Positions 3,650 through 28,832 of a stretch of 64,000 nucleotides of DNA are shown piece by piece (position 1 is the first letter of the stretch; each line of letters begins with the position of its first letter). The stretch covers positions 1 to 64,000 of the forward strand of contig SLTG01000021.1 in NCBI GenBank assembly GCA_007130045.1. Direction: 5' to 3'. A model generated the notes under the pieces. That model did no database searches and had not been told where the DNA came from. It saw only the letters and a program-made list of their open reading frames with translations. Origin of the DNA: Opitutales bacterium (lineage in GTDB: Bacteria > Verrucomicrobiota > Verrucomicrobiia > Opitutales > T3Sed10-336). The position numbers and the translations under genes are program-made.

Positions 3650-3740
3650 CCCGGATTGTCCAAAAGGTCCTGAAACTTCTCCTGAATCCAATTCCGGAGT
3701 TGGAAATTCACGGAATTTTCGCGACTGTTTGTCCTTTTCA

Positions 3741-6700
3741 ATGGATGAAACTTATCATGCGCCCATACGTCTCCGGGGTGTTCGTCAGAATAACCTGAAC
3801 GCACTCGACCTCGACCTTCCGCGCGGAAAACTCATCGTCGTCACCGGCCTCAGCGGCACGGGAAAATCTTCGCTGGTGTTTGAAACGATCCACGCCGAAG
3901 GCCAGCGCCGTTACGTCGAGACCTTCAGTCCCTATACCCGGCAGTTCCTCGAACTCCTCGACCGTCCCGACGTCGACAGCATCGAGAACATTCCCCCTTC
4001 CATTGCGATCGAGCAGAGCAACACGATCAAGACGTCCCGTTCGACGGTCGGGACCATGACCGAACTCTGCGATTACTTCAAAATCTGGTTCAGCCGCGTC
4101 GCCGAACTTTTCGATCCGGATACCGGCGACAAAATCGACGACGAATCCGCCCCGGTCATCTGGAAGAAGGCCCGCAAACGGTTTTCCGATGAAACCGTCC
4201 TCCTCTGCTTCCCGATCGCCCGGCCTTCGTCGATATCCTGGAAGGAAATCTTCGAAAACCTCCTCCGCCAGGGCTACCGCCGGGCCGTATTCGACGAAAA
4301 GGTCGAAAAGATCGACGCGCTTCTCGAGCGCGCCGGATCGCTCGCCGGCAAATCGACCCCGCCCGCCGTCAACGTGATCCAGGACCGTCTCACCCTCAAC
4401 TCAGGCGGCCGGAAACGTTTCCTTGAGGCGGCGGAAGCCGCCCTACATTTCGGGCAGGGCGAGCTCCGCCTTCTCTATGCAGGCGGCGGCGAGATCGCCC
4501 GATTCTCGACCGGACTCCGTTCGCTCGCCACGGGCAGAAAGTTTCGCGAAGCGATTCCCGCCCTTTTTTCATTCAACTCGCCGCTCGGCGCGTGCCCGCG
4601 CTGCCGCGGATTCGGAAGAATCATTGAAATCGACTACAGGTTGGCCGTCCCCGACCCAAAACTCAGCCTTTCCGAAGGCGCGATCAAACCGTGGCAGGGA
4701 CAGGTTTACGGAGAATCGCAAAAGGATATGCTCCGTTTTGCGCGGAAAGCCCGCATTCCAACCGACGTGCCCTACGAGGACCTTTCCGACGACCACCGGC
4801 GCCTCATCGAGTACGGCGAACCGGATTACGGCGTGAACGGAAAGGACTGGCCGGAAGCGTGGTATGGACTGAAGGGGTTCTTCGACTACCTCGAAACGAG
4901 AACCTACAAGATGCACGTGCGGGTGTTTCTTTCGCGCTACCGCGCCTACCGGAAATGCCCGGATTGCCGAGGCTTTCGCCTGCAGCCCGAGTCGCTTTGC
5001 TGGCGCTGGAAAGGACAAACGCTTCCGGCGCTCTACCAACTCCCGGTCGGCGAACTCCTTGAGCAACTCCGCAAGCACCATCGCCCGACCGGAAACCGGC
5101 AGGCGGATATCGCTTTTGACGCGATCCTGAACCGTCTCGGATACCTCGACCAGGTCGGCCTCGGCTACCTCACCCTGGATCGATCCTCGCGCACGCTTTC
5201 GGGCGGAGAGGTCGAACGCGTCAACCTGACCTCCTGTCTCGGCACTTCCCTGGTGGATACGCTCTTCGTCCTGGACGAGCCGTCGATCGGACTGCACTCG
5301 CGCGACATCGACCGGCTCATCGGAATCCTGCGCCGCCTGACCGCGCTGGGCAACACCGTCGTTGTCGTCGAACACGACGAAGCAATGATTCGGGCCGCCG
5401 ACCATGTCCTTGAACTCGGGCCGGAGCCGGGAAGCAAGGGAGGGCGGCTGGTATTCCAGGGCGGCCGCGACGAACTCCTCGCAAGCCCCGACAGCCTGAC
5501 CGGCGCCTACCTGTCCGGCAGACGGGAAATCGCCCCGCCTTCCACTCGGCGTCCGACAAAACTCCCGGGCCGGAAAAGACAAGCAGGTGTCACCGATAAA
5601 TGGATACGATTTCGAAACGCCCGTAAACACAACATTGAAACGCTCGACTTCGATCTTCCACTGCGCCGGATGGTCTGCCTCAGCGGCGTCTCGGGCTCCG
5701 GAAAATCCACGCTCCTCGACAACATTATTTACCAGGGCATCCTCGCCGCCCGCGGACGCCTCGCCGACGATCCCGCCGAGATCGGGGAAATCGAAGGGAT
5801 CGACCTCGTGAACGAAGTGGTCCTCGTCGATCAGTCTCCGGTCAGCCGGACCCCGCGTTCGAACCCCGCGCTCTACACCGGGGCATGGGACGGCATCCGG
5901 GAGTGTTTCGCATCCACCGGCACCGCCGTCGCACACGGGTTCACCGCGTCGAACTTTTCCTTCAATGCCGGCGAGGGCCGCTGCGGAAACTGCCAGGGAC
6001 TCGGTTACGAGCGGGTCGAGATGCAGTTTCTTTCCGATATCTACGTTCCCTGTTCCGTTTGTGACGGGAAACGTTTCAAAGAAGAGATCCTCGCCGTCAG
6101 GTACCAGGGAAAATCCATCGAAGAGGTCCTCCGAATGACCGTTGACGAAGCGGCGCTTTTCTTCGGCGAGAAACCGAAGATCCGTTTCGACTTGGAAAGT
6201 CTCCGGGAAGTCGGGCTCGGATACCTGACGCTCGGGCAGCCGCTGAATACGCTTTCCGGAGGCGAGTCGCAGCGGCTCAAACTCGTCAAATACCTGTCCG
6301 TTCTCGGAAGGGAAAAACGCCAACGAAGCGAAGAATTCAGTCCGGCCGGCGGCGCCCTTCTCCTTCTCGACGAACCCACCACCGGCCTCCATCGTCACGA
6401 TATCAAACGCCTGATTTCGGTGCTCCAGGCGCTCGTCGATAAAGGGCACAGTCTAGTCGTGATCGAGCATCAGCTCGACGTTCTCAAATCCGCCGACTGG
6501 CTCTTCGAGATCGGTCCGGGCGCCGGACGGGAGGGCGGCGGACTCGTCGCCCAGGGAACGCCGGAAAAGATCGCCGCAGGTTCCTGCCCTTCGTCCGGGT
6601 TTCTCGCCCGGGCTCTTGCTCCCGTCGTACCCGTGCCGGTCCCGGCCGCCCGGAAAACCGCCGCGCGCAAGGTCGCCGAACCGGCCGCCACCTACGGGAA

Positions 6701-9509
6701 GCGCAAAGGGGCTCGTCAAAGGGTTTCGCCTGCTCCCTCAAAGTCCCGTACGCCCGACGGTCGTTCCGGCGACAACAACACTTTTATTCACCTGTCCGGC
6801 GCCCGCGAACACAACCTCAAGAACCTCGCTCTGGATATTCCCCATCGAAAGATGACGGTCGTTACGGGCGTCTCGGGCTCCGGGAAATCGACACTGGCAT
6901 TCGATATCATCTTCGCCGAAGGACAACGCCGTTTCATGGAGTCCATGTCCGCCTACGCGCGCCAGTTCGTCGAACAACTTCCCCGTCCCGACATCGATAG
7001 GCTCGAGGGAATTCCACCCACTGTGGCGATCGAGCAGCGCGTCACGCGCGGAAACCGAAAATCCACGGTCGCCACGGTCACCGAAGTCGCGCAGTACCTT
7101 CGCCTCCTCTACGCACGCATCGGCGTACAGCACAACCCCGCGACCGGCCGGGCGGTCATCTCCCAGTCCGAGGGCGCGCTGCTCGCGCGCCTTCGAAAGC
7201 TGACCCGGACTCCCGGCGGACGGCGGACCTCTCCTCTTTACCTTTGCGCCCCGTTGGTGCGAGGACGAAAAGGCCACCACGAACCTGTCGCGAACTGGAT
7301 CGCCGAACACGGTTACGAACTGATGAGGGCCGACGGAAAGCTCGTTCGCGCGAGGGAGTTTCGTCGTCTCGATCGCTACCGCGAGCACGATATCGAAGTG
7401 GTCGTCACAGACTTGACCGCCGAGTCACGCCTCAAACGCCACAAAAACGCCCCCGCGCTCGGCGCGCGTCTCCGCGAAGCCCTCCGCCTCGGCAAGGGCG
7501 CCTGTTTCCTGCTTCGCGGCGACGGAACCATTCTCGCGTGGCTCTCCACCGCCCGCACCGATCCCGTCACCGGCGAATCGTTCCCCGAACTCGACCCGAA
7601 ACATTTTTCGTTCAACTCCTCGCGCGGATGGTGCGAGACCTGCCGCGGTTACGGCCGCCTTTACAGCGACCTGCTGGATGCGGATGAAAGCCAGATCGAA
7701 GTCATCGAAGACGGCGCGATCTGCCCGGACTGTTTGGGCGAACGCCTCAACCCGGTCAGCCGCTCGGTCAAACTCTATTTCCGGGACAACACCGCGCGCT
7801 CCCTTCCCCAACTCCTGCAGTGCGGCGCCAACGAGCTGGTCAAAACCCTGCGAAACCTCGACCTCGACCGGCGCGGCAAGCTGATCGTCCGCGATGTTCT
7901 GCCCCAGATCGAAGAACGGCTTCGGTTCCTCGGCGAAGTCGGTCTCGAGTACCTCAGTCTCGACCGTCCGGCGCACACTCTTTCCGGGGGCGAGGCCCAG
8001 CGCATTCGCCTGGCCGCCCAACTCGGCTCCAACCTCTGCGGGGTCCTCTATGTCCTCGATGAACCTTCGATCGGCCTGCATCCCAGGGACAACCGGCGGC
8101 TTCTCAAGTCTCTCGAAAACCTCAAGGACAAGGGAAACACGCTGCTGGTCGTCGAACACGATGAGGAAACCATGCGGGCCGCCGACGGGATCATCGATCT
8201 CGGCCCCGGCGCGGGCATCCGCGGCGGCGAGATCCTGGCTCACGAGGACCTCACGCGACTGGCGAAAAACGACGCCTCGCTGACCGGAAGGTACCTGAGG
8301 AACGGGCTCGTCCATCCGCTTCGCGGCCGCTACCGGGAACTTCCTCCGGCGCGGCGTTCGGGAAGGCCTCTCGCCGAATCCGAGTGGCTCGTCCTGAAGA
8401 AACCCGCCCTGCGCAATCTCAAGGGCGACGATCTTCGCGTTCCCATCGGACGTCTGATAATGGCGTGCGGCGTTTCGGGCGCGGGCAAGTCCACCCTGCT
8501 CCGCGACCTTCTTCGTCCCCTGGTGCGGCATGCCGCAAAAAACGGTATTCCGCGGATGAAACCCGCCGATTTCGCCGGCGGAATCCCGGACGCTTCCGAT
8601 GACAATTCGGGCTCGATCGACGGACGCTCCGTGTTTCGGGAACTGATCAACGGCGACCGTTTTCGCAAGGTGATCGAAGTCGATCAGGACCCCATCGGCA
8701 AAACGCCGAGGTCCACGCCGGCCACGTATCTCGGCGTGTTCGACATTATTCGCAAAGTTTACGCCACCCTTCCGGAATCAAAAATGCACGGTTATTCCCC
8801 GGGGAAATTCTCGTTCAACACCGCCGGCGGACGCTGCGAAACCTGCAAGGGGGCCGGACGCATCAAACTTGAAATGAACTTCCTTCCCGACAGCTACCTC
8901 GCCTGCGAGGACTGCAACGGGCGGCGTTACGGCGCCGAGCTGCTCGACATCGAATGGAACGGCAAGTCGATCGCCGACGTTCTCGAAATGACCTTCGAGG
9001 AAGCCGCCCGCCACTTCGACTTCCACACTCAGATTCGGACCATGTGTCAGTTAATGGTGGATACGGGACTCGGCTATCTCACCCTCGGCCAGAGCAGCCC
9101 GACCCTGTCCGGCGGGGAAGCGCAGCGTATGAAAATGGTGACCGAACTGATCAAGGGCGAAACGACGTTGACCACCCGCCGCCGCGACGCGGGAAAGGGA
9201 AACCTTTACATTCTCGAAGAACCGACGATCGGCCTGCACTTCGACGACTGCGAAAAACTGATCCACGTCCTGCACAGGCTCGTGGACCAAGGTCATACGG
9301 TCATCGTGATCGAACACAACGTCGATCTTCTCGCCGAAGCCGACTACCTGATCGAGATTGGTCCGGAAGGCGGCGATGGCGGCGGCCGCATTCTCTACCA
9401 GGGTCCGGTCCACGGCATCCTGGCCATCCCCCGCAGCCCGACCAAACCATTTCTGAAAACCAAACTGAAAAAGCTGCCGAAGAATAAGATTCGAAAAGAG
9501 AAACCATGA
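3741..9509 (+). CDS. uvrA: Double-length UvrA excinuclease subunit A (tandem fusion)
   Basis: 1,922 residues from the ATG at 3741 (the track start is an upstream TTG). A usual UvrA is ~940 residues; this is two UvrA units end to end, with a basic Ala/Pro-rich linker at ~965-1010. Four ABC modules show Walker A at ~38 (GLSGTGKSS), ~650 (GVSGSGKST), ~1043 (GVSGSGKST) and ~1577 (GVSGAGKST), and signatures [27 protein letters not shown] and LSGGEAQRM. Walker B is LDEP in the first three and LEEP in the fourth. CxxC zinc modules of the UvrA type (CPRC/CPDC, CGNC/CSVC, CETC/CPDC, CETC/CEDC) are present. Role: damage recognition in nucleotide excision repair; one chain may fold as an intramolecular UvrA dimer. 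No uvrB or uvrC is in the window. Confidence 0.95.
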
Positions 9510-11502: not shown

Positions 11503-12498
11503 TCACGGTCTCCGCAGGTTATACTCGAACCTTTCGATGCTCGATAATTCGGGACGGCCACCCCGGTTTCCGCTACCGGCGACTATATAGATATTATCGT
11601 CATGAACGATCGCCTGGGTGCCATGCCTGCCTCTTGCAAGAGGAGCCAGGGTTCGCCATTCATCTGATTCAAGATCATAGGCTTCCACTTCATCATGAGC
11701 AGTGGCGATTAATCCGCTTTCGCCTCCAATCACAATAAGGTGATTGTCCGCGATAACCGTTGAGGTTCCCGCCCTGGGTGTAGGTAAATCGTGCGATTCG
11801 GGAAACGACTCCCACGAATCACTATCAATGTCGTAAACATCCACCTCCGGTCTGGTCAACTCGAACGTCTGGCCGGTGGCACGTGAGCTGTTCCTTCCTC
11901 CGGCACAATAAATCTTTCCATCCTTCATTGCGGCATGAAAATGATCACGGGCTCTTGGCGCATCGGCAAGAACGCTCCACTCTCCTGTAATGAAATCATA
12001 CTGGTCAACCCATTTCACATGGTTGCCGCGGTGCCCATCGATAATCCCGCTTATTATAATGGCTTTGTCACCATCAACCACTACACCCGCCGAAGACCTT
12101 CTTCTGTCCTCCGGAATTTCATCCCCTTCCTCCCAGCGATCTTCAGCAGGATCATAAATCCAAATATGGCTCAATGGCCGTTCTCCGTCGGCTCGTCCGA
12201 TCATTCCCATAAACGCATATATTTTGCCTTGATGCTCGACTGCCTGAAAATGATGCAATTCAATCGGTGATCTCGCCCCTTCCGACCATTCCCTGGAAAC
12301 GGGATCAAAGATATCAACCGGTTTGATACCCCGACCTCCCAATAAATAGAATTTCCCATTCACCTCAACAAAAGCATTCTCATGCCGAGCCGTGGGTTCT
12401 CCGTCGCAATCGATCTTTTCCCACATGCCCTGCACATTTACGATCAAGCCAGCCCAAACGAGAGCCGCGGTTAACACTATTACGCCGTTCGTTTTCAT
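11503..12498 (-). CDS. Secreted kelch-repeat beta-propeller protein
   Basis: 331 residues from the ATG at 12498, chosen because AAAGG lies 9 nt upstream and the protein then starts with a signal (MKTNGVIVLTAALVWAGLIVNVQG). At least five to six kelch blades are visible: repeats of GKFYLLGGRG, GKIYAFMGMIG, GKIYCAGGRNS, NHLIVIGGES and DNIYIVAGSGN, each followed by a Tyr/Phe-Asp and a tryptophan (WSEGARSP, WEEGDEIP, WSVLADAP, WESFPES, WRTLAPL). Relatives include NanM-type mutarotases and galactose-oxidase-like propellers; no active-site motif for either is obvious. It likely binds or processes sugars exported or imported with the neighbouring lyase, which follows on the same strand. Confidence 0.82.
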   Translation of the reverse strand: MKTNGVIVLTAALVWAGLIVNVQGMWEKIDCDGEPTARHENAFVEVNGKFYLLGGRGIKPVDIFDPVSREWSEGARSPIELHHFQAVEHQGKIYAFMGMIGRADGERPLSHIWIYDPAEDRWEEGDEIPEDRRRSSAGVVVDGDKAIIISGIIDGHRGNHVKWVDQYDFITGEWSVLADAPRARDHFHAAMKDGKIYCAGGRNSSRATGQTFELTRPEVDVYDIDSDSWESFPESHDLPTPRAGTSTVIADNHLIVIGGESGLIATAHDEVEAYDLESDEWRTLAPLARGRHGTQAIVHDDNIYIVAGSGNRGGRPELSSIERFEYNLRRP

Positions 12499-12785
12499 AT
12501 ACATATGCCTTTCATTCATTGAGACGGATTTCAACCTTCGGTTGCACGCCGAAATATTATCGAATCCTCAGCGAAGATTTCCCCGGAAGCAAGGACTACT
12601 GTAGATTCTGACAAAGCAATGGTCAATTGTAAAAATATCCTTTTAAAAGCCTCTAATGAGGGGGATCAGGGGACGGGATGCTCTTTTCGAGGAATCTCCC
12701 GATCCCAAATTAGGGATTGCTCTCGAATGGAGAAACTTGATTTCATGAGGAGAAAGGGATTACCCGCCTGAGTGCAAGGCGAATT
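12499..12785. other. Divergent spacer, kelch gene and alcohol dehydrogenase
   Basis: The 287-bp spacer between divergent genes presumably holds both promoters. It contains a short perfect hairpin, ATCCC-AAATTA-GGGAT, near 12702-12717 and a looser CGGGA/TCCCG pair just before it. No convincing -35/-10 pair was found. Confidence 0.4.
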
Positions 12786-14021
12786 ATGGACAACAATGAA
12801 TCAATCCGTCGCATCGTTGACGAGGTTTTAGCGAAAGTCGGAGGGCGGTCGAGCGGAGGCGGACGGGCATCCTCCTCGGCATTGGCCGCGGGGCGGAACA
12901 CTCCCCTTACCGGGCGGGTCGTCCAGTTGGTCGCGCCGGAAAAGCTGGAGATCCGCGAATATCCCCTGCGAACGATTCGTCCCGATGAAATCCTGGTTAA
13001 AGTGGAGGCGTGCGGTATTTGCGGGACCGACATTCACTGTTATCGCTCGGATCCATTCGGAATCGCTCCGGCAGTGCTCGGCCACGAGGGTACAGGCGTG
13101 GTTCTTGAGGTGGGGTCGGCGGTGAAAGCGGACAGTGTTGGGAAGCCGGTTCGTGTCGGTGATCGGATTGTCACGAGCGTCCTCGACACCTCGGAGGCCT
13201 GCATGATCGCGAAGTACAATCCGCTTAAGGCGAACCTTTGTGACGATCTCAAGGTGTACGGTCTGCTGCCGGACGAGCCGAACAATCATTTCAACGGATA
13301 TTTCGGCGAATACCTCATAATCCGGCCGGAATCCTCCTATTTCGTGGTGAATGACATGAGCGTGGACCTGCGGGTGCTGATCGAGCCTTCGGCCGTTGTT
13401 TGCCACGCTCTCGAACGGGCCAAGAATTCAGGTGTGAACATCAATTTTCGCACGCGAGTGATTGTCCAGGGCTGCGGCCCGATCGGATTATTGATGGTCG
13501 CCGTCCTCAAGACGAGCGGGATAAATAATATTATCGCGATCGACGGCAATTCCGGTCGCCTTGAGATTGCCCGTCAAATGGGGGCCGATGATACCTTGAA
13601 TTATCATGCTTACGGCGGGATCGACGAATTGGCCGGCGCGGTATCCGATCTAACCAAGGGGCTGGGAGCGCACTACGGATTCCAGGTGACCGGTGTGCCC
13701 TCGGCGTTCGCGGGCTTGTTCAAATGCATTCGCAGGGGTGGAGGGATCTGCGAAGTCGGACATTTCGTTGACGGCGGAGAATGCGGAATCAATCCCCATC
13801 ATGACATTTGCCGAAAAGAAATCACCGTAACGGGAAGCTGGGTCTACAACCGCTTCGAATACCCGAACGCATACCACTTTCTCCAGCGCGCGGAACGTAT
13901 TGGTATTCCGGTGACGAATCTTATTACTCATAAGTTTCCCCTTGACCGGATACAGGAAGCGTTTGACGTGAACCTTCGCCAGGAGGGCATCAAGGTCATG
14001 GTCGAGAATCCGCGAGCTTAA
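12786..14021 (+). CDS. Zinc alcohol/polyol dehydrogenase with encapsulation-peptide-like N-terminus
   Basis: 411 residues, longer than the usual ~345 of zinc MDR dehydrogenases because of an N-terminal addition. Residues 1-20 form an amphipathic helix with hydrophobics at I7, I10, V11, V14, L15 and V18, followed by a Gly/Ser/Ala-rich linker (21-40). This is the layout of peptides that target enzymes into bacterial microcompartments. The catalytic domain follows: CGICGTD (zinc Cys79), GHEGTG (His100, Glu101), and the Rossmann motif GCGPIGLLMV. The usual four-cysteine structural zinc lobe is absent (ACMIAKYNPLKANLC keeps two cysteines). It is an NAD(P)-dependent alcohol/polyol dehydrogenase, substrate unknown. 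No microcompartment shell gene is in the window. Confidence 0.85.
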   Translation: MDNNESIRRIVDEVLAKVGGRSSGGGRASSSALAAGRNTPLTGRVVQLVAPEKLEIREYPLRTIRPDEILVKVEACGICGTDIHCYRSDPFGIAPAVLGHEGTGVVLEVGSAVKADSVGKPVRVGDRIVTSVLDTSEACMIAKYNPLKANLCDDLKVYGLLPDEPNNHFNGYFGEYLIIRPESSYFVVNDMSVDLRVLIEPSAVVCHALERAKNSGVNINFRTRVIVQGCGPIGLLMVAVLKTSGINNIIAIDGNSGRLEIARQMGADDTLNYHAYGGIDELAGAVSDLTKGLGAHYGFQVTGVPSAFAGLFKCIRRGGGICEVGHFVDGGECGINPHHDICRKEITVTGSWVYNRFEYPNAYHFLQRAERIGIPVTNLITHKFPLDRIQEAFDVNLRQEGIKVMVENPRA

Positions 14022-14284: not shown

Positions 14285-16087
14285 TCAGGTGGATTTTTTC
14301 TCTTCCTTGCGTTTGCCGACAAAGATGGTGATGTCGGCATCGCGTTGGCCGAGCAACTCCTGGGCTCTGCGCAATGCGTTTCGGGTCGAAAAAGTGGGGT
14401 TGCTTGGCTTGTCCATAAAGAAATTATCACGTCCCAGTTTTTCCAGCAAACCGGAGTTACGGAAAACCCGGTAAACTTCCCTGTGCGCGCCGGAAACCAG
14501 CAATTTGCAGCCATTGGCCTGCAACACATGCAGCAACTCCTCAATCGCAAGGGCACAGGTGGCATCGAGATGGCGGGCATTTTTCAGTCGAAGAATAACA
14601 ATCTTAAGATTTGGATCTAGAGTCGCATTAACGGCCTGTTCGACGAAAAGTTCCGTCGAGCCGAAAAACAGATCTCCCTCGGCGTGTAAAATCGAGATGC
14701 CGGGAGCCTTCTTACGTTCCGGATCATCAATCGCCGCCAATTGACCCTCGGGGGTGAATTCATATTCAATGAGTTCCGGTGAGCCAACCTTGCGCAGGAA
14801 CAGAATAACCGAAGTGAAAACTCCGATGTAGATTGCGGTATCCAAGGTGAATAACAAGCCTGACAACAGAGTTATCACAAAAACCACCGCATCAGCGTTC
14901 GTGGTGCGTATCGACACCCTGATCTGATGCCGGTTGAACAGTGAAAACGCCACCGCCAGCACCACTGCCGCCAAGGCTGCCATGGGGATGTAACTGATCA
15001 GAAATCCGACGGTGAAAAGCAACACCAGACAGAAACCTCCGCTGATGACAACGGAAACCGCCGTGCGTGCTCCACTGGCCCAGTTCAGGGCGGATCGGGT
15101 AATCGAACCGGAAGCATCCATGCCCCCGACAAGGCTATTGGCAAGATTGCCCATGCCCATGCCAAACATCACCTGGTTCACATTGATCCGTTCGCCGGAC
15201 CGGGAAGCTAGACTGCGCCCTACTGACGCCCCTTCCACGACCCCGAGAAAAGCGACCGCAAAAGCAGGAGCAGCCAATCTGGCCACCAAATCCAGGTCGA
15301 ATGGAATGGCAAAATATTCTATGGCATCCAGTGAAAAACCTGTCAGGTAGCGCAAATCCCAGCCCACCCAACTGAAATACAGAGCAATCAGGCTGGTGAC
15401 AATCAGTGTAAGTGCCGCATCGGGCAGTTTGGGAACAAATCGCCGGAAAGCCAGCAATGTTACCAATGCGACGGCGCCCATGATTATTTCCGGGAGGCGC
15501 GTTTGATCAAGATTGGCCAATGTTCCACCGAGGATCGTGAAAAAAGTAGTGCCCTCTTCCAGACTGAAGCCAAGCAGGTTCTGGCTCTGGTTCACGACGA
15601 TCAGCGCGGCGGCTGCGGTGATATAGGCGGTTACCACCGAGCGCGACACATAGTTGAGGACCAGTGAGAGGTTGGCGAGGGCACCGATAATCTGAAAACA
15701 GCCGACCATGAAAATGAACAGCGGCAGGGCAAAGATCCGTTGTTCCTCGGATAATCCCGCCGCCACCATACCTGAGAACAGCAAAATCGCCGTGGAATTC
15801 CCCGGGCCCATCACCACCAGTCGCGATCCGGAGAAAGCCGCTGAAACAATGGCTCCCAGTCCAACGCTGAGCAGCCCATGTTGTGGATGAAGACCGGCAA
15901 TTAGCGCAAAAGCTATCCCTTGCGGAAAACCAACCAGCGCGACATTGAAACCCGCCCGCAGGTCCGCGCGGGCCTGCTCGCGAGTGTAAGCGCGAAGGAT
16001 GCGCCTGAGGGGGAGAAGTTCCAGCTTCCGCAAGCGAAAAGCATTGCCCAACCCGCGGAAAGCTTTCTCAAGGGAAGTCAGAAACAC
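14285..16087 (-). CDS. SulP-family anion transporter with STAS domain
   Basis: About 600 residues. The track ORF opens at a TTG at 16102; a GTG at 16087 has GGAG 9 nt upstream and is preferred. The N-terminal ~400 residues hold 10-14 membrane segments with SulP hallmarks (GFNVALVGFPQGIAFALIAG, GPGNSTAILL, GGMDASGSITRSALNWASGARTAVS). Residues ~430-550 form a cytoplasmic STAS domain (ISILHAEGDLFFGS, ILRLKNARHLDATCALAIEEL), with Thr in place of the often phosphorylated Ser. Members move sulfate, bicarbonate or dicarboxylates by symport or exchange; the substrate cannot be assigned. Sulfatases elsewhere in the window make sulfate a reasonable guess. It stands alone, convergent with the dehydrogenase gene. 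Confidence 0.9.
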   Translation of the reverse strand: MFLTSLEKAFRGLGNAFRLRKLELLPLRRILRAYTREQARADLRAGFNVALVGFPQGIAFALIAGLHPQHGLLSVGLGAIVSAAFSGSRLVVMGPGNSTAILLFSGMVAAGLSEEQRIFALPLFIFMVGCFQIIGALANLSLVLNYVSRSVVTAYITAAAALIVVNQSQNLLGFSLEEGTTFFTILGGTLANLDQTRLPEIIMGAVALVTLLAFRRFVPKLPDAALTLIVTSLIALYFSWVGWDLRYLTGFSLDAIEYFAIPFDLDLVARLAAPAFAVAFLGVVEGASVGRSLASRSGERINVNQVMFGMGMGNLANSLVGGMDASGSITRSALNWASGARTAVSVVISGGFCLVLLFTVGFLISYIPMAALAAVVLAVAFSLFNRHQIRVSIRTTNADAVVFVITLLSGLLFTLDTAIYIGVFTSVILFLRKVGSPELIEYEFTPEGQLAAIDDPERKKAPGISILHAEGDLFFGSTELFVEQAVNATLDPNLKIVILRLKNARHLDATCALAIEELLHVLQANGCKLLVSGAHREVYRVFRNSGLLEKLGRDNFFMDKPSNPTFSTRNALRRAQELLGQRDADITIFVGKRKEEKKST

Positions 16088-16115
16088 ACCAGTTTTCTCC
16101 AATTTGAATTGGTAT

Positions 16116-23766: not shown

Positions 23767-26130
23767 ATGAAGGATAAAAACAACGAGCAGCCGGCCGCAA
23801 GCGCCGAAACCGCGAACGCGGCTCCCGAACCGACCCGATTCCGGCTGGAACGCCGGGAGGACGGGATCTGTATCGTCACTTTCGACCGTCCGGGTTCATC
23901 GGCCAACCTGCTCGACCGAACGGTCTTCAAAGAGCTCGGCCAGGTTCTCGACACCCTTGGGGAAGACCGGGCGGTTCGCGGACTGGTATTCGCCACGGCC
24001 AAACCGTCGATCTTTATCGCGGGGGCCGACCTGAACGCGCTCTCCGAAGGCGTCCCCCGGGAGGAAGTCGAACGGTTGGTTGACGAGGGGCAGAGCGTGA
24101 TGAATCGCATCGCCGGATTTCCGAAGGCCACGGCGGCCGCGATTCACGGGGCCTGCGCGGGCGGCGGCTTCGAACTCGCCCTCGCGTGCGACTGGCGCGT
24201 CGCCTCCGACGACCGCTCCACCCGAATCGGTCTGCCCGAAACGCAACTCGGCCTGATTCCGGCCTGGGGCGGCTGCACCCGCCTCACCCGGCTCGCCGGC
24301 CCCGCCTCCGCGGCCGACCTCATTCTGAACGGAAAGCTCCTCCCGGCGACGCAGGCTGCCGCGCGGGGGTTGATCGACGCCGTGTGTCCAAAGGAACACC
24401 TGATCAGCCTGGCCATCCGCAAGGTCCGCTCGGGCAGGAATCGAGCCGCCCTCCGCCCGGACGAACTCCTGCGCAGAGCGCAGGCGCCGGTCGTGAAAAT
24501 CGTGGCGCGACGGAAACTCCGGCGCCGCGGCGGCGGACATTACCCGGCGCCCGCCCTGGCGCTTTCCGTAATCACCGACGGCGCCCTTCGCTCGAAACAG
24601 GAAAGTTTCCGACTTGAGAAGGAAGCGATCGCCCAGGCGGCGCTGACCGATGTATCCAAAAACTTGATCCGAATATTCCTTCTCCGCGAAAAGGCGTCGA
24701 AAAAGACGGGCAAAGCCGCAGTGCCGTCGCGAATGGCGGTCATCGGCGCGGGCGTGATGGGATCCGGGATCGCCCATTGGTTTTCCTCCCGCGGATCGCG
24801 CGTGCTCCTCAACGACATCGGTCCCGACGAGGTCGACCGGGGAATGGCTGCCGTCGTGCGGCTCTACAGGAAGGGAGTCCAGCGGAGAATCTTTACCGAT
24901 AACGAAATGCGCAGAGCGCTCGACCGGATCTCCCCAACGGCCGACCCGGCGCCTCTGACCCATACCGAACTCGTTATTGAGGCGGCGATGGAGGATCTGT
25001 CCGTAAAAAAGGATCTTTTCCGGCAGCTCGAAGCCCGCGCCGGACCGGATACGATCCTCGCGACCAATACTTCCGCCCTTTCAATCGCCGGGATCGCCTC
25101 GGCGTGCCAACGCCCGGAACGGGTGATCGGGATTCATTTCTTCAATCCGGTTCATCGGATGCCCCTGGTGGAAGTCGTGCCGGGAGAGAAGACCGATCCC
25201 GGCATCACGGACACAGTCCTCGACATCGTGAGAAGCGCCGGGAAAGTTCCGGTCGTGGTTGGAGACAATCCGGGGTTCCTCGTCAATCGGATTCTGATGC
25301 CGTACCTGGTGGAGGCCGTCCTTCTGTTTGAAGAAGGAATTCCGGTAAGCGGGATCGACGCGGCGATGACGGGCTTCGGCATGCCGATGGGACCGCTCAG
25401 GCTCCTCGACGAGGTGGGAATCGACGTTGCGGGTCACGTGGCGAAAACCCTCGCCGACGCCTACCCGGACCGGATGCAGACGCCGGCCACACTGGATACG
25501 CTTATTGAGAAAAAACGCTTCGGAAAGAAGGCCGGAACCGGATTCTACGACCACACCGGCCGGCACGCGAAACCCAGCCGCGAAACCGGGCGGCTGCAAC
25601 GGGTCCGTCACGGCGAAAACCTTTCCAGGGAAGCGATCGTCGAGCGGCTCGGCTTTGCCCTCATCAACGAGGCCGCCCGCTGCATCGACGATCCGCCCCC
25701 GGGCGCAAGGTTTCCCTCCGCCGGATCGCCCGGGGACGTCGACCTGGCGATGGTCCTGGGCACGGGCTTCGCCCCGTTTCGCGGCGGACCGTTGAGGTAC
25801 GCGGATTCGCTCGGGATCGGCGCGATCGTCTCGCGCATGCGGACTCTCGAGAAATCGGCGGGTGAACGCTTCGCTCCCTGCGGCCTCCTCGTGCCGCGGG
25901 AAAATATTCTGCTGGAGGAAGGGAAAGGGCTGAAGGTCGCCCTGACCACTCTCAATACCGGTCGTCTTACCCTGCCGGCCGCCTGCGCCGGCCTCTCCAA
26001 GCGGTGCCTGGAGATCACGCGGAAGTGGGCCTCCGAACAAATGCTCGCTGCGAGCGCGAAACCGACCCGTCTCACGGCGCCGGTACCGCCTGACGCAGGA
26101 CGTAATGAAAGGCGACTACCGCTGGATTGA
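23767..26130 (+). CDS. fadJ: Fatty-acid oxidation multifunctional enzyme (enoyl-CoA hydratase / 3-hydroxyacyl-CoA dehydrogenase)
   Basis: 787 residues. The N-terminal crotonase domain (~20-215) has the [10 protein letters not shown] oxyanion region and both hydratase glutamates ([10 protein letters not shown] ~134, GLPETQLGL ~157). The dehydrogenase domain starts with the Rossmann motif [14 protein letters not shown] (~323), followed by ATNTSALSI, the catalytic His in [14 protein letters not shown], and [10 protein letters not shown]. The C-terminal dehydrogenase repeat ends with [17 protein letters not shown]. It performs the second and third steps of beta-oxidation in the cytoplasm. Its thiolase partner upstream is a relic, so it must rely on another thiolase. 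It is intact throughout. fadB is the alternative name; operon position fits fadJ. Confidence 0.92.
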
Positions 26131-26211
26131 AGATGGAATTCTTGGCGACGGATGAAGCCGCGTCCGGCCGGCCTTTCTCCCGGAAGGCGAGCCGGACCCC
26201 TGCACCAACTC

Positions 26212-27468
26212 CTATAACCTGTTTTTCCTCGATATAATTTCGCCGGATGACAGAACGATCTCGGCGGTCCATTCCCCTCTCATGTCTTCTACCAATACCG
26301 GATCCTGTCTCCAGTTATTGATCCAGAATACTGAAAAAGGTTCATCATAACAGGTATATATCAATTCATCATTTCTATAGAAATTCACATAGTTTATTGT
26401 CTCAGGATATAGGCTTGAAACCCTTAACCACCTCTTTCCTTCATATTCCATCCCAGGCTCAAATCCATGAAAATAAAACTGCTCTTCCCTGGGTATTTCG
26501 TCTAATTTTATCCCTATTCCCTGTGCCATTCTATGTGCGAAAAACCTGTCCTCGCCGTCCAGCACTCCCCATTTCACCGGAGGTTCTTGTTTTGTCATAT
26601 TATTATAATACCCCCATGATGCATGCAGATTAAATGACACCTCCATGTTCCCGATTGCCTGGGAATCTTCATTGCAAACCACAGGTTTACCCGGAGAAAT
26701 TTCCCGTACCTTCTTAATTAAATTATAAAATTTCTGCCTGCTACAATTATTGCCATGAATCAATATTACATCCGAAGCCCTTGTTACCTGCTCATTATAG
26801 CGACCTCCGGTGAGACTACAACCCACCGGCATCCCGCCGGATGCTTCTCTTGCAATGTTTATCAAAACCGCCATCCCCTCATCTTCCATTGCTATTGGAT
26901 GTGATCTAAATGCGTTATGTTCATTAGCAATTTCGATAATAACATTTGTACATTTTTGATCTTTTAGATATTTTGAAGCAGTTTTTACCGAGTTTACGAC
27001 AGCAGTGGCATCTTTTATTCGACTGATCTGCATATGATAAAAGTAGCTAACGATAACTACCATACCTTTTTCGTCGGCTGCTCTGATAATTCGTCCCAAT
27101 CTGTCCAAGTATTTACTATCAATACTTAACCCATCATCGCTGAACGGGTTATTATTAATGGTGTCATTGCTAATGGTAAAGCACGGCCCCCCACCCTGTA
27201 AACCTACTGTAAATGCCCGTAAGCCATACGAATACCATTCATCCAGTGATGCTATTAAATTATCTGTGTTCTTATCCGGGTCATACTTTTTTACGCCAAA
27301 TCGATTAAACCTGGAAATATCTTCTTTTTCATCAAATATTCCCTGTATGAATCTAGCGTTCATCAATAACCCATGAGACTGCTCTTTACTCCCGATAATT
27401 TCAGAATATGTCTTCTTCCCGTTAACAAGAAAATCCTCACCCTGTATTGATAAAACCGTTTTTCCCAT
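26212..27468 (-). CDS. GH5-like (beta/alpha)8 glycosidase, AT-rich gene
   Basis: 418 residues from the ATG at 27468 (MGKTVLSIQG), with AAGGGAG 10 nt upstream; the track ATG three codons earlier lies too close to this site. The fold looks like a TIM-barrel glycosidase: IIEIANEHN (general acid Glu in an NEH motif, ~180) and PVVCNEDSQ (candidate nucleophile Glu, ~272) are spaced as in clan GH-A, with a beta-rich C-terminal domain from ~350. No signal peptide. Base composition is clearly lower in GC than both neighbours, with AT-rich codons, suggesting transfer. It is a lone gene; substrate unknown. A member of a GH5-like uncharacterised family seems most likely. Confidence 0.7.
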   Translation of the reverse strand: MGKTVLSIQGEDFLVNGKKTYSEIIGSKEQSHGLLMNARFIQGIFDEKEDISRFNRFGVKKYDPDKNTDNLIASLDEWYSYGLRAFTVGLQGGGPCFTISNDTINNNPFSDDGLSIDSKYLDRLGRIIRAADEKGMVVIVSYFYHMQISRIKDATAVVNSVKTASKYLKDQKCTNVIIEIANEHNAFRSHPIAMEDEGMAVLINIAREASGGMPVGCSLTGGRYNEQVTRASDVILIHGNNCSRQKFYNLIKKVREISPGKPVVCNEDSQAIGNMEVSFNLHASWGYYNNMTKQEPPVKWGVLDGEDRFFAHRMAQGIGIKLDEIPREEQFYFHGFEPGMEYEGKRWLRVSSLYPETINYVNFYRNDELIYTCYDEPFSVFWINNWRQDPVLVEDMRGEWTAEIVLSSGEIISRKNRL

Positions 27469-27537
27469 AATATTCATTCTCCCTTAATTAATATCATCTG
27501 TGAATTTTGCACTATTAAATTGATATAATAGTGACGA

Positions 27538-27599
27538 GAAATCGCTTTTCCGGCTGCGCGGACACGAGCCCGCTAAACCGACCTGAAAAAGCGCTTTCA
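27538..27599. repeat. 62-bp hairpin element, copy B (REP-like)
   Basis: Starts GAAATCGCTTTTCCGG and ends CTGAAAAAGCGCTTTCA; the ends form near-perfect inverted repeats. Partner of copy A at 16116. It lies in the ~300-bp spacer between the AT-rich glycosidase gene and pilT, 70 bp upstream of the former's start on the opposite side of an AT-rich promoter-like patch (TATAATAGTG). The rest of this spacer holds no supported gene. Confidence 0.6.
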
Positions 27600-27776
27600 C
27601 CGGAAGGATGGTGGCAGAAGCAGCAATGATGCGTCAAGACCCCGTTTTGACAATTGGCAACCAATCATGATTCTGCCGGCGGTATTTATAAGTTGCAAAG
27701 GCGATTACCATTAGCTTGAAGACGGGATACCTGTGCGCGGGGAGGACCAATCGAACCTGTAATCGCGCGGAAAGAG

Positions 27777-28832
27777 TCAGCGCTTCAGCATATTTGCAAA
27801 CGCATCCTTGTCGGAGGCTTTCATGTACGCTTCCTCGTTCGAAATCTTCCCGGCTTCGAGGCATTGTTTGATGGAGCTGTCCATGAGGCGCATGCCCCGG
27901 GACGAGCTGCTTTCAATGATGCTCCTGATGTCGCTGATTCGGCCGGTTCGGATCGTATTGGGGAGCGCTTCGTGCTTGAGAAGAATCTCGTGCACGGCGA
28001 TTCGACCCTTCGGGACGCGTTTGCAGAGCAGTTGTGAAACGACACAGGCGAGACTGTTGGCCAGCATGACGCGGATCTGCGCCTGCTCGTCCGCCGGAAA
28101 GGCGTCGATGATCCGGTCGACCGTCTTGGGGGCGTTGTTGGTGTGCAGCGTACCGATGACCAACATTCCCATCGAAGAGCAGTTGAGCGCCAGCTTGATC
28201 GTTTCAAGGTCGCGCATTTCTCCCACGAGCACAATGTCGGGGTCCGCGCGCATCGCTCCGCGTAACGCGTTGCCAAAGGAGGCGGTGTGGGATCCGACCT
28301 CGCGGTGAACGATCACACTGCGTTTGTTGGGATGCACGAACTCGATCGGATCCTCGATGGTGATAATGTGTTTTTGAAAATTCTCGTTGATGTGGTCGAT
28401 CATCGCGGCGAGCGTCGTCGATTTGCCGCTCCCGGTGGGACCGGTGACAAGCACAAGCCCCTCGTTGTAGGCGCAAACCTCCCGCAGGACGTCGGGCAAT
28501 CCCAGTTTGTCGAAGGAGAGGATTTCGGCGGGAATCTGGCGGAAGACGGCGGCCTTGCCCCAGTGGTTGTAGAGATAACTTCCGCGAAATCGCGCCAGCC
28601 CGGGAATCTCGTAGGCGAAGTCCAGGTCCTGCCGGGCAAGATAATCGTTCCAGCGGTCGTCCGGACAGATTTCCCGCAGGAGCGCGGTCATCTCATCGGC
28701 GGAGACCGCCGTTTCATATAGGGGACGGATCGCGCCCGAGGCGCGGATTTTCGGAGGCGAGCCAATGGTGAGGTGAAGGTCGGAGCCGTCCGCATCCAGC
28801 ATTGCCCGCAGGTATTCATCGATTCTGGCCAT
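27777..28832 (-). CDS. pilT: PilT-family twitching motility ATPase (second of pair)
   Basis: 351 residues, normal for PilT. The N-terminal PAS-like domain (GSDLHLTIGSPPKIRASG) is followed by Walker A GPTGSGKSTTL, the Asp box IITIEDPIEFVH, Walker B ADPDIVLVGEMRDLETI, and the His box VIGTLHTNNAPKTVDRIIDAFP. The C-terminal segment HEALPNTIRTGRISDI replaces the classic AIRNLIRE motif. It is a hexameric inner-membrane-associated ATPase that powers retraction of type IV pili. It starts 3 bp after the stop of the other PilT-like gene, so the two are one operon. It could be the PilU-like member; pilT/pilU roles cannot be settled by eye. Confidence 0.9.
   Translation of the reverse strand: MARIDEYLRAMLDADGSDLHLTIGSPPKIRASGAIRPLYETAVSADEMTALLREICPDDRWNDYLARQDLDFAYEIPGLARFRGSYLYNHWGKAAVFRQIPAEILSFDKLGLPDVLREVCAYNEGLVLVTGPTGSGKSTTLAAMIDHINENFQKHIITIEDPIEFVHPNKRSVIVHREVGSHTASFGNALRGAMRADPDIVLVGEMRDLETIKLALNCSSMGMLVIGTLHTNNAPKTVDRIIDAFPADEQAQIRVMLANSLACVVSQLLCKRVPKGRIAVHEILLKHEALPNTIRTGRISDIRSIIESSSSRGMRLMDSSIKQCLEAGKISNEEAYMKASDKDAFANMLKR

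Follow-up and report, generated by a model that had tools for sequence, protein, structure and literature searches.

Why should a free-standing zinc alcohol dehydrogenase gene in an Opitutales bacterium encode an N-terminal extension resembling those that target enzymes to bacterial microcompartments (BMCs)? PVM (Planctomycetes-Verrucomicrobia) compartments help Verrucomicrobiota of the sea to feed on fucose and rhamnose from algae. In these compartments fuculose- or rhamnulose-phosphate is split to give lactaldehyde (PMC4207490, PMC8857213), and their locus was described as being without an ordinary alcohol dehydrogenase; Axen 2014 gave NAD+ regeneration by default to an LDH/MDH-like gene, the only candidate in the locus (PMC4207490). 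The window, meaning the whole 64,000-nucleotide stretch of DNA that we analysed, contains a gene (here ADH) whose product may fill that place. The gene, its parts and its neighbours are as follows:

11503..12534, minus strand: kelch-repeat protein, neighbour of ADH and divergent to it
12776..12779, plus strand: possible Shine-Dalgarno sequence AAGG, 6 nt 5' of the ATG
12786..14021, plus strand: ADH, a zinc (MDR) alcohol dehydrogenase with a putative encapsulation peptide; ORF of 411 aa, PF08240 at residues 66-181 and PF00107 at 232-367, orthologues in PVM and GRM5 loci
12786..12842, plus strand: candidate encapsulation peptide, residues 1-19; helix 3-19 in the model, profile rank 5/4061, hydrophobic positions kept
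12843..12908, plus strand: flexible Gly/Ser/Ala linker, residues 20-41; low pLDDT, low identity with indels
12909..14018, plus strand: MDR dehydrogenase core; invariant columns, fold match to 1vj0, Cys loss
14285..16102, minus strand: SulP sulfate permease with STAS domain, neighbour of ADH and convergent to it

The ORF starts with ATG and, since the kelch-repeat neighbour is divergent, the gene stands alone in this genome. The first-pass annotation had described residues 1-20 (MDNNESIRRIVDEVLAKVGG) as an amphipathic helix with hydrophobic residues at 7, 10, 11, 14, 15 and 18, followed by a Gly/Ser/Ala linker ahead of a complete zinc dehydrogenase, and this description proved exact. An AlphaFold2 model built with 24 homologues places a helix at residues 3-19, gives pLDDT below 50 for residues 19-36 and starts the core at residue 42; residues 20-41 are thus disordered, and the linker itself reads GRSSGGGRASSSALAAGR. 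After it come the ADH_N (PF08240) and ADH_zinc_N (PF00107) domains of a complete zinc MDR dehydrogenase that resembles polyol and threonine dehydrogenases; its best match among solved folds is 1vj0, a zinc ADH from Thermotoga (TM 0.89 by target length). Residues C76, H100/E101 and E200, the putative catalytic Zn ligands, are invariant across the orthologues aligned, as is D253 after GCGPIG, which we take to be an NAD-selecting residue and which suggests NAD(H) as the cofactor. The structural-zinc cysteines, intact in peptide-less relatives (e.g. CGKCPACKNTPARTNLC), are gone from the peptide-bearing PVC clade (ADH residues about 124-158, window 13155-13260).

The amphipathicity of the peptide is by itself unremarkable (shuffle p about 0.05) and, together with the isolated position of the gene, could fit an ordinary cytosolic enzyme with a chance amphipathic N-terminus. 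We therefore turned to the residue pattern, using a 16-column profile for which AldDHs of 26 other genomes alone supplied the encapsulation peptides and, as background, 4061 candidate N-termini drawn from both the window and related contigs (mean -7.0, sd 4.4). The ADH N-terminus scored 19.2 bits, fifth of the 4061, and all four higher-scoring N-termini belong to AldDHs; several ADH orthologues rank next, the best unrelated N-terminus reaches 9.8 bits, and among 200,000 shuffled versions of the peptide only 2 attain its score. Orthologues in three genomes (G059, G087 and G007) score only 7-8 bits, in the upper tail of the background, and would be missed by the profile alone. Judged by sequence, it is the residue pattern, rather than amphipathicity alone, that is diagnostic of the ADH peptide.

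The pattern is that of PVM cargo. Across PVM loci of the relatives and the window's genome, 27 of 29 AldDH N-termini carry a peptide close to DEAxIRxVVxEVLxKL, and the other two (G037 and G052) have a divergent helix instead. The genome's own PVM AldDH peptide, MNMNEQQVQDIVAEVLRKLGK, shares with that of ADH its helix pattern, N-terminal position and flexible linker; the two peptides differ in the enzyme that carries them and in the contig that encodes it. The first-pass annotation had read the extension as an encapsulation peptide of BMC cargo and called for its comparison with cargo peptides of the genome's own loci, and this likeness to the AldDH peptides bears it out: a terminal amphipathic helix of about 15-20 residues is joined by a poorly conserved flexible linker to the enzyme. 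The same close resemblance could mean co-assembly, with a helix that helps to assemble the core, or ties ADH to other enzymes, instead of binding the shell as such. Some cargo peptides are believed to favour aggregation of the core, yet that would still be BMC cargo behaviour, and we regard tethering in place of shell binding as a very improbable account of the helix.

We then asked how the extension fares among relatives. At a threshold of 1e-60, ADH matched in 12 of 88 order-level relatives; relatives named Coraliomargarita and Opitutales belong to the GTDB order of the window's genome. The ten orthologues of at least 60% identity all have the helix, with a hydrophobic residue at positions 7, 10, 11 and 15 in 10/10 and at position 14 in 9/10; the two relatives at about 50% identity start at the core, without peptide, and keep the structural-zinc Cys cluster. 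Pairwise identity among orthologues is highest in the core (74%), lower in the helix (48%) and lowest in the linker (20%), where indels leave gaps in the alignment. The shell-protein family PF03319 occurs in 41 of the 88 relatives: in 10/10 with a peptide-bearing ADH and in 31/78 of the others (Fisher p 2.5e-4, uncorrected for shared ancestry). As only 10 of these 41 PF03319-bearing relatives have the gene, about a quarter, PVM function does not generally depend on ADH.

A phylum sample of 387 genomes gave the same picture and added three peptide-bearing genomes (G343, G257 and G241). PF03319 was found in 8/8 genomes with the peptide type and in 0/34 with the peptide-less form, a PVC zinc ADH of about 50% identity with a homologous core, no peptide and intact structural-zinc cysteines; one order-level relative with a peptide-less ADH (G071) does have shell genes, and the separation of the two forms is therefore not absolute. 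In all, the extension is kept in 13/13 Verrucomicrobiota genomes with a close orthologue, so that the refuting case named by the first-pass annotation, close homologues without a conserved extension, did not arise, and shell genes are present in all 13. Wherever a whole genome could be checked, shell genes accompanied the peptide, in the genome or in the locus.

Does the window's genome have a compartment to receive such an enzyme? The shell-gene search that the first-pass annotation had suggested returned five PF00936 and three PF03319 matches, corresponding to three BMC-H, one two-domain BMC-T and three BMC-P genes. Most lie in a complete PVM-type (fucose/rhamnose) locus on another contig (C30). 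Its gene order is:

C30 PVM locus: DeoR, PduL, BMC-H, BMC-H, AckA, BMC-H, BMC-P, AldDH, BMC-P, BMC-P, class II aldolase, LDH

The locus thus holds the components of a PVM microcompartment, namely a PF00596 aldolase, AldDH, PduL, three BMC-H, three BMC-P, AckA and DeoR, with AckA and DeoR assigned from a reading of the sequence and from tblastn identity between loci. The PVM class II aldolase (L009:16762-17821) ends in a helix, AEDMVRAVTDLIEKELRRNGG, that looks like an encapsulation peptide; C-terminal encapsulation peptides have been described for aldolases of another BMC type, and this helix is alike. An operator-like site resembling GATTTTGANAGNTTT lies in the PduL promoter region (2 mismatches). 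It has no counterpart upstream of ADH, where the best site has 4 mismatches, as in shuffles, and we rejected a shared operator for the two genes.

The BMC-T gene and, ahead of it, that of a PduS-like RnfC protein with Complex1_51K, RnfC_N and 4Fe-4S domains form a satellite at the end of contig C39 (L011:8422-10292; G000 contig C39, about 72421-74291); the RSICSGKY stretch of the BMC-T is reminiscent of PduT. In one relative (G070) the PduS-like/BMC-T pair directly adjoins the PVM locus. A BMC-T of this type occurs in only 4 of the 88 relatives, two of them ADH-bearing, and we see no clear link between ADH and the satellite. Two other readings were set aside: the genome's two Fe-type ADH genes (PF00465) were considered as peptide-tagged rival recyclers, and neither has such an N-terminus; contamination of the bin is unlikely, the nearest ADH orthologue (80%) being in the same family (G003).

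In the window's genome ADH lies outside the BMC operon, and we therefore call it remote cargo rather than a locus member. Elsewhere the two are joined. In five genomes (G039, G054, G087, G241 and G066) ADH sits inside the PVM locus, downstream of the aldolase, in the order aldolase, LDH, L-rhamnose isomerase, FGGY kinase, ADH in G066 and aldolase, MDH-like gene, FGGY kinase, ADH in G087. A named relative with the in-locus arrangement is Coraliomargarita sp. SDUM461004. In G059 it is just downstream of L-rhamnose isomerase, and in G027 the sequence upstream of it reads as the end of an L-rhamnose isomerase gene. These orthologues within the same kind of BMC locus strengthen the earlier proposal that the protein is a remote cargo. 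Profile rank, a conserved helix beside a variable linker, restriction of the peptide to settings with shell genes and linkage of orthologues to the PVM locus all speak against a chance helix, which we reject as scarcely credible. ADH is very probably an enzyme of this genome's fucose/rhamnose organelle, encoded far from the organelle operon.

What reaction might it catalyze there? Of the best 80 named relatives, 68 are Firmicutes proteins; the rest are from a handful of Verrucomicrobiota and a single Pirellulales MAG, or are ADHs of PVC bacteria and Tolumonas that have no peptide. Outside PVC bacteria the nearest, peptide included, come from GRM5 fucose/rhamnose microcompartments of Firmicutes, where they go by the name of zinc 'lactaldehyde reductases'. 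Among these 80, shell genes were present in the fetched DNA for 69 of 73 with the peptide and 0 of 7 without. The DNA around peptide-bearing relatives typically holds five PF00936-type genes, one BMC-P, AldDH, PduL, an aldolase and PduS. GRM5 loci also have a glycyl-radical diol dehydratase. Compared with the GRM5 zinc AlcDH (Cphy_1179-type, of Lachnospiraceae and Clostridia), the window's enzyme has the same PF08240+PF00107 content, 43-52% identity over nearly its whole length, a common peptide form (NIEEIVKQVLxxM) and a common fucose/rhamnose setting that includes a class II aldolase, AldDH and PduL; by sequence, it is an orthologue of the GRM5 lactaldehyde reductase, an identification that the first-pass annotation had not made. 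The settings differ in that GRM5 loci have about five BMC-H-type genes and one BMC-P with ADH in the locus, whereas the window's gene is remote and its compartment of PVM type.

The GRM5 PF00107/PF08240 enzyme has been assigned as a lactaldehyde reductase (PMC6325248), or putatively so (PMC5311937), and its C. phytofermentans relative was earlier named propanol dehydrogenase (PMC3557285); the role of the GRM5 enzyme is thus itself a proposal (PMC3557285, PMC5311937). In an unrooted, three-group tree of the core only, the peptide-bearing PVC enzymes form one clade (100/100), the GRM5 enzymes lie on one side of a branch (89/78) and peptide-less enzymes fall between them, a topology compatible with either one or two origins of the peptide. 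The Pirellulales MAG holds a peptide-bearing ADH (L067:9992-11206; 72% identity) between genes that read as FtsH-like and GyrA-like; it may reflect cross-phylum transfer or misbinning. What appears to be new here is a GRM5-type AlcDH serving PVM compartments, and doing so as remote cargo.

In the pathway that we propose, the class II aldolase supplies L-lactaldehyde, which the acylating AldDH converts to lactyl-CoA, with formation of NADH inside the shell. An internal NADH oxidiser is consequently needed. ADH, which its N-terminal amphipathic helix would anchor in the enzyme core or against the inside of the shell, as happens with AldDH and PduL, could then reduce part of the L-lactaldehyde to 1,2-propanediol (lactaldehyde + NADH -> 1,2-propanediol + NAD+), and the recycled NAD+ would let the series lactaldehyde -> lactyl-CoA -> lactyl-phosphate -> lactate continue in the closed lumen. 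A role as lactaldehyde reductase is thus the likely one. The sugar route upstream of these steps is uncertain in the window's genome, because the genome lacks RhaA and the sole candidate sugar isomerase found is a distant FucI-like protein.

A true BMC cargo could also act on another substrate or in the other direction, oxidizing 1,2-propanediol, another diol or a sugar alcohol, or reducing propionaldehyde or glycolaldehyde. The likeness of the MDR core to polyol and threonine dehydrogenases, the older name of the C. phytofermentans relative (PMC3557285) and the sugar-catabolic genes adjoining orthologues, which leave the direction unfixed, are all compatible with this. However, the PVM loci that we read showed no diol dehydratase, and propionaldehyde would therefore be an unexpected substrate; lactaldehyde is what the aldolase produces, and AldDH requires an enzyme that recycles NAD+. 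We consider another substrate or direction unlikely. Taking together the peptide, its conservation, its likeness to AldDH peptides, the shell genes, the co-occurrence and the locus linkage of orthologues, we put at about 0.78 the probability that ADH is a cargo of this genome's PVM compartment that recycles NAD+ by lactaldehyde reduction, where we infer encapsulation, substrate, direction and cofactor alike.

NAD+ regeneration in the same compartment has been proposed for the LDH/MDH-like core AlcDH of PVM loci (PMC4207490), which belongs to an unrelated family (PF00056/PF02866). Its copies that we read, LDH and MDH alike, start at or near the Rossmann fold and end with the C-terminal domain, and no encapsulation peptide was seen at either end. 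The simplest account is that the zinc ADH would be the internal recycler in these organisms, with LDH presumably outside. A fuller version, to which we give slightly less than even odds, is that ADH regenerates NAD+ inside the PVM shell as an exchangeable in-locus or remote cargo, the same as the Firmicutes GRM5 cargo by shared origin or transfer, while the peptide-less LDH/MDH-like enzyme works outside, for example from lactate to pyruvate.

The peptide-tagged ADH is thus a concrete, testable candidate for the missing PVM core enzyme, found in a quarter of shell-bearing relatives; five genomes have it in the locus, others at a distance. Locus-based BMC catalogues gather genes no more than 12 ORFs away from a shell gene (PMC8217296), and a remote ADH shows that such catalogues can miss cargo. 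Elsewhere in the window, positions 26001-28000 have a G+C content of 0.45, against 0.53-0.65 around them, and the 1926-aa protein encoded at positions 3729-9509 looks like a tandem of two UvrA-like excinuclease halves.
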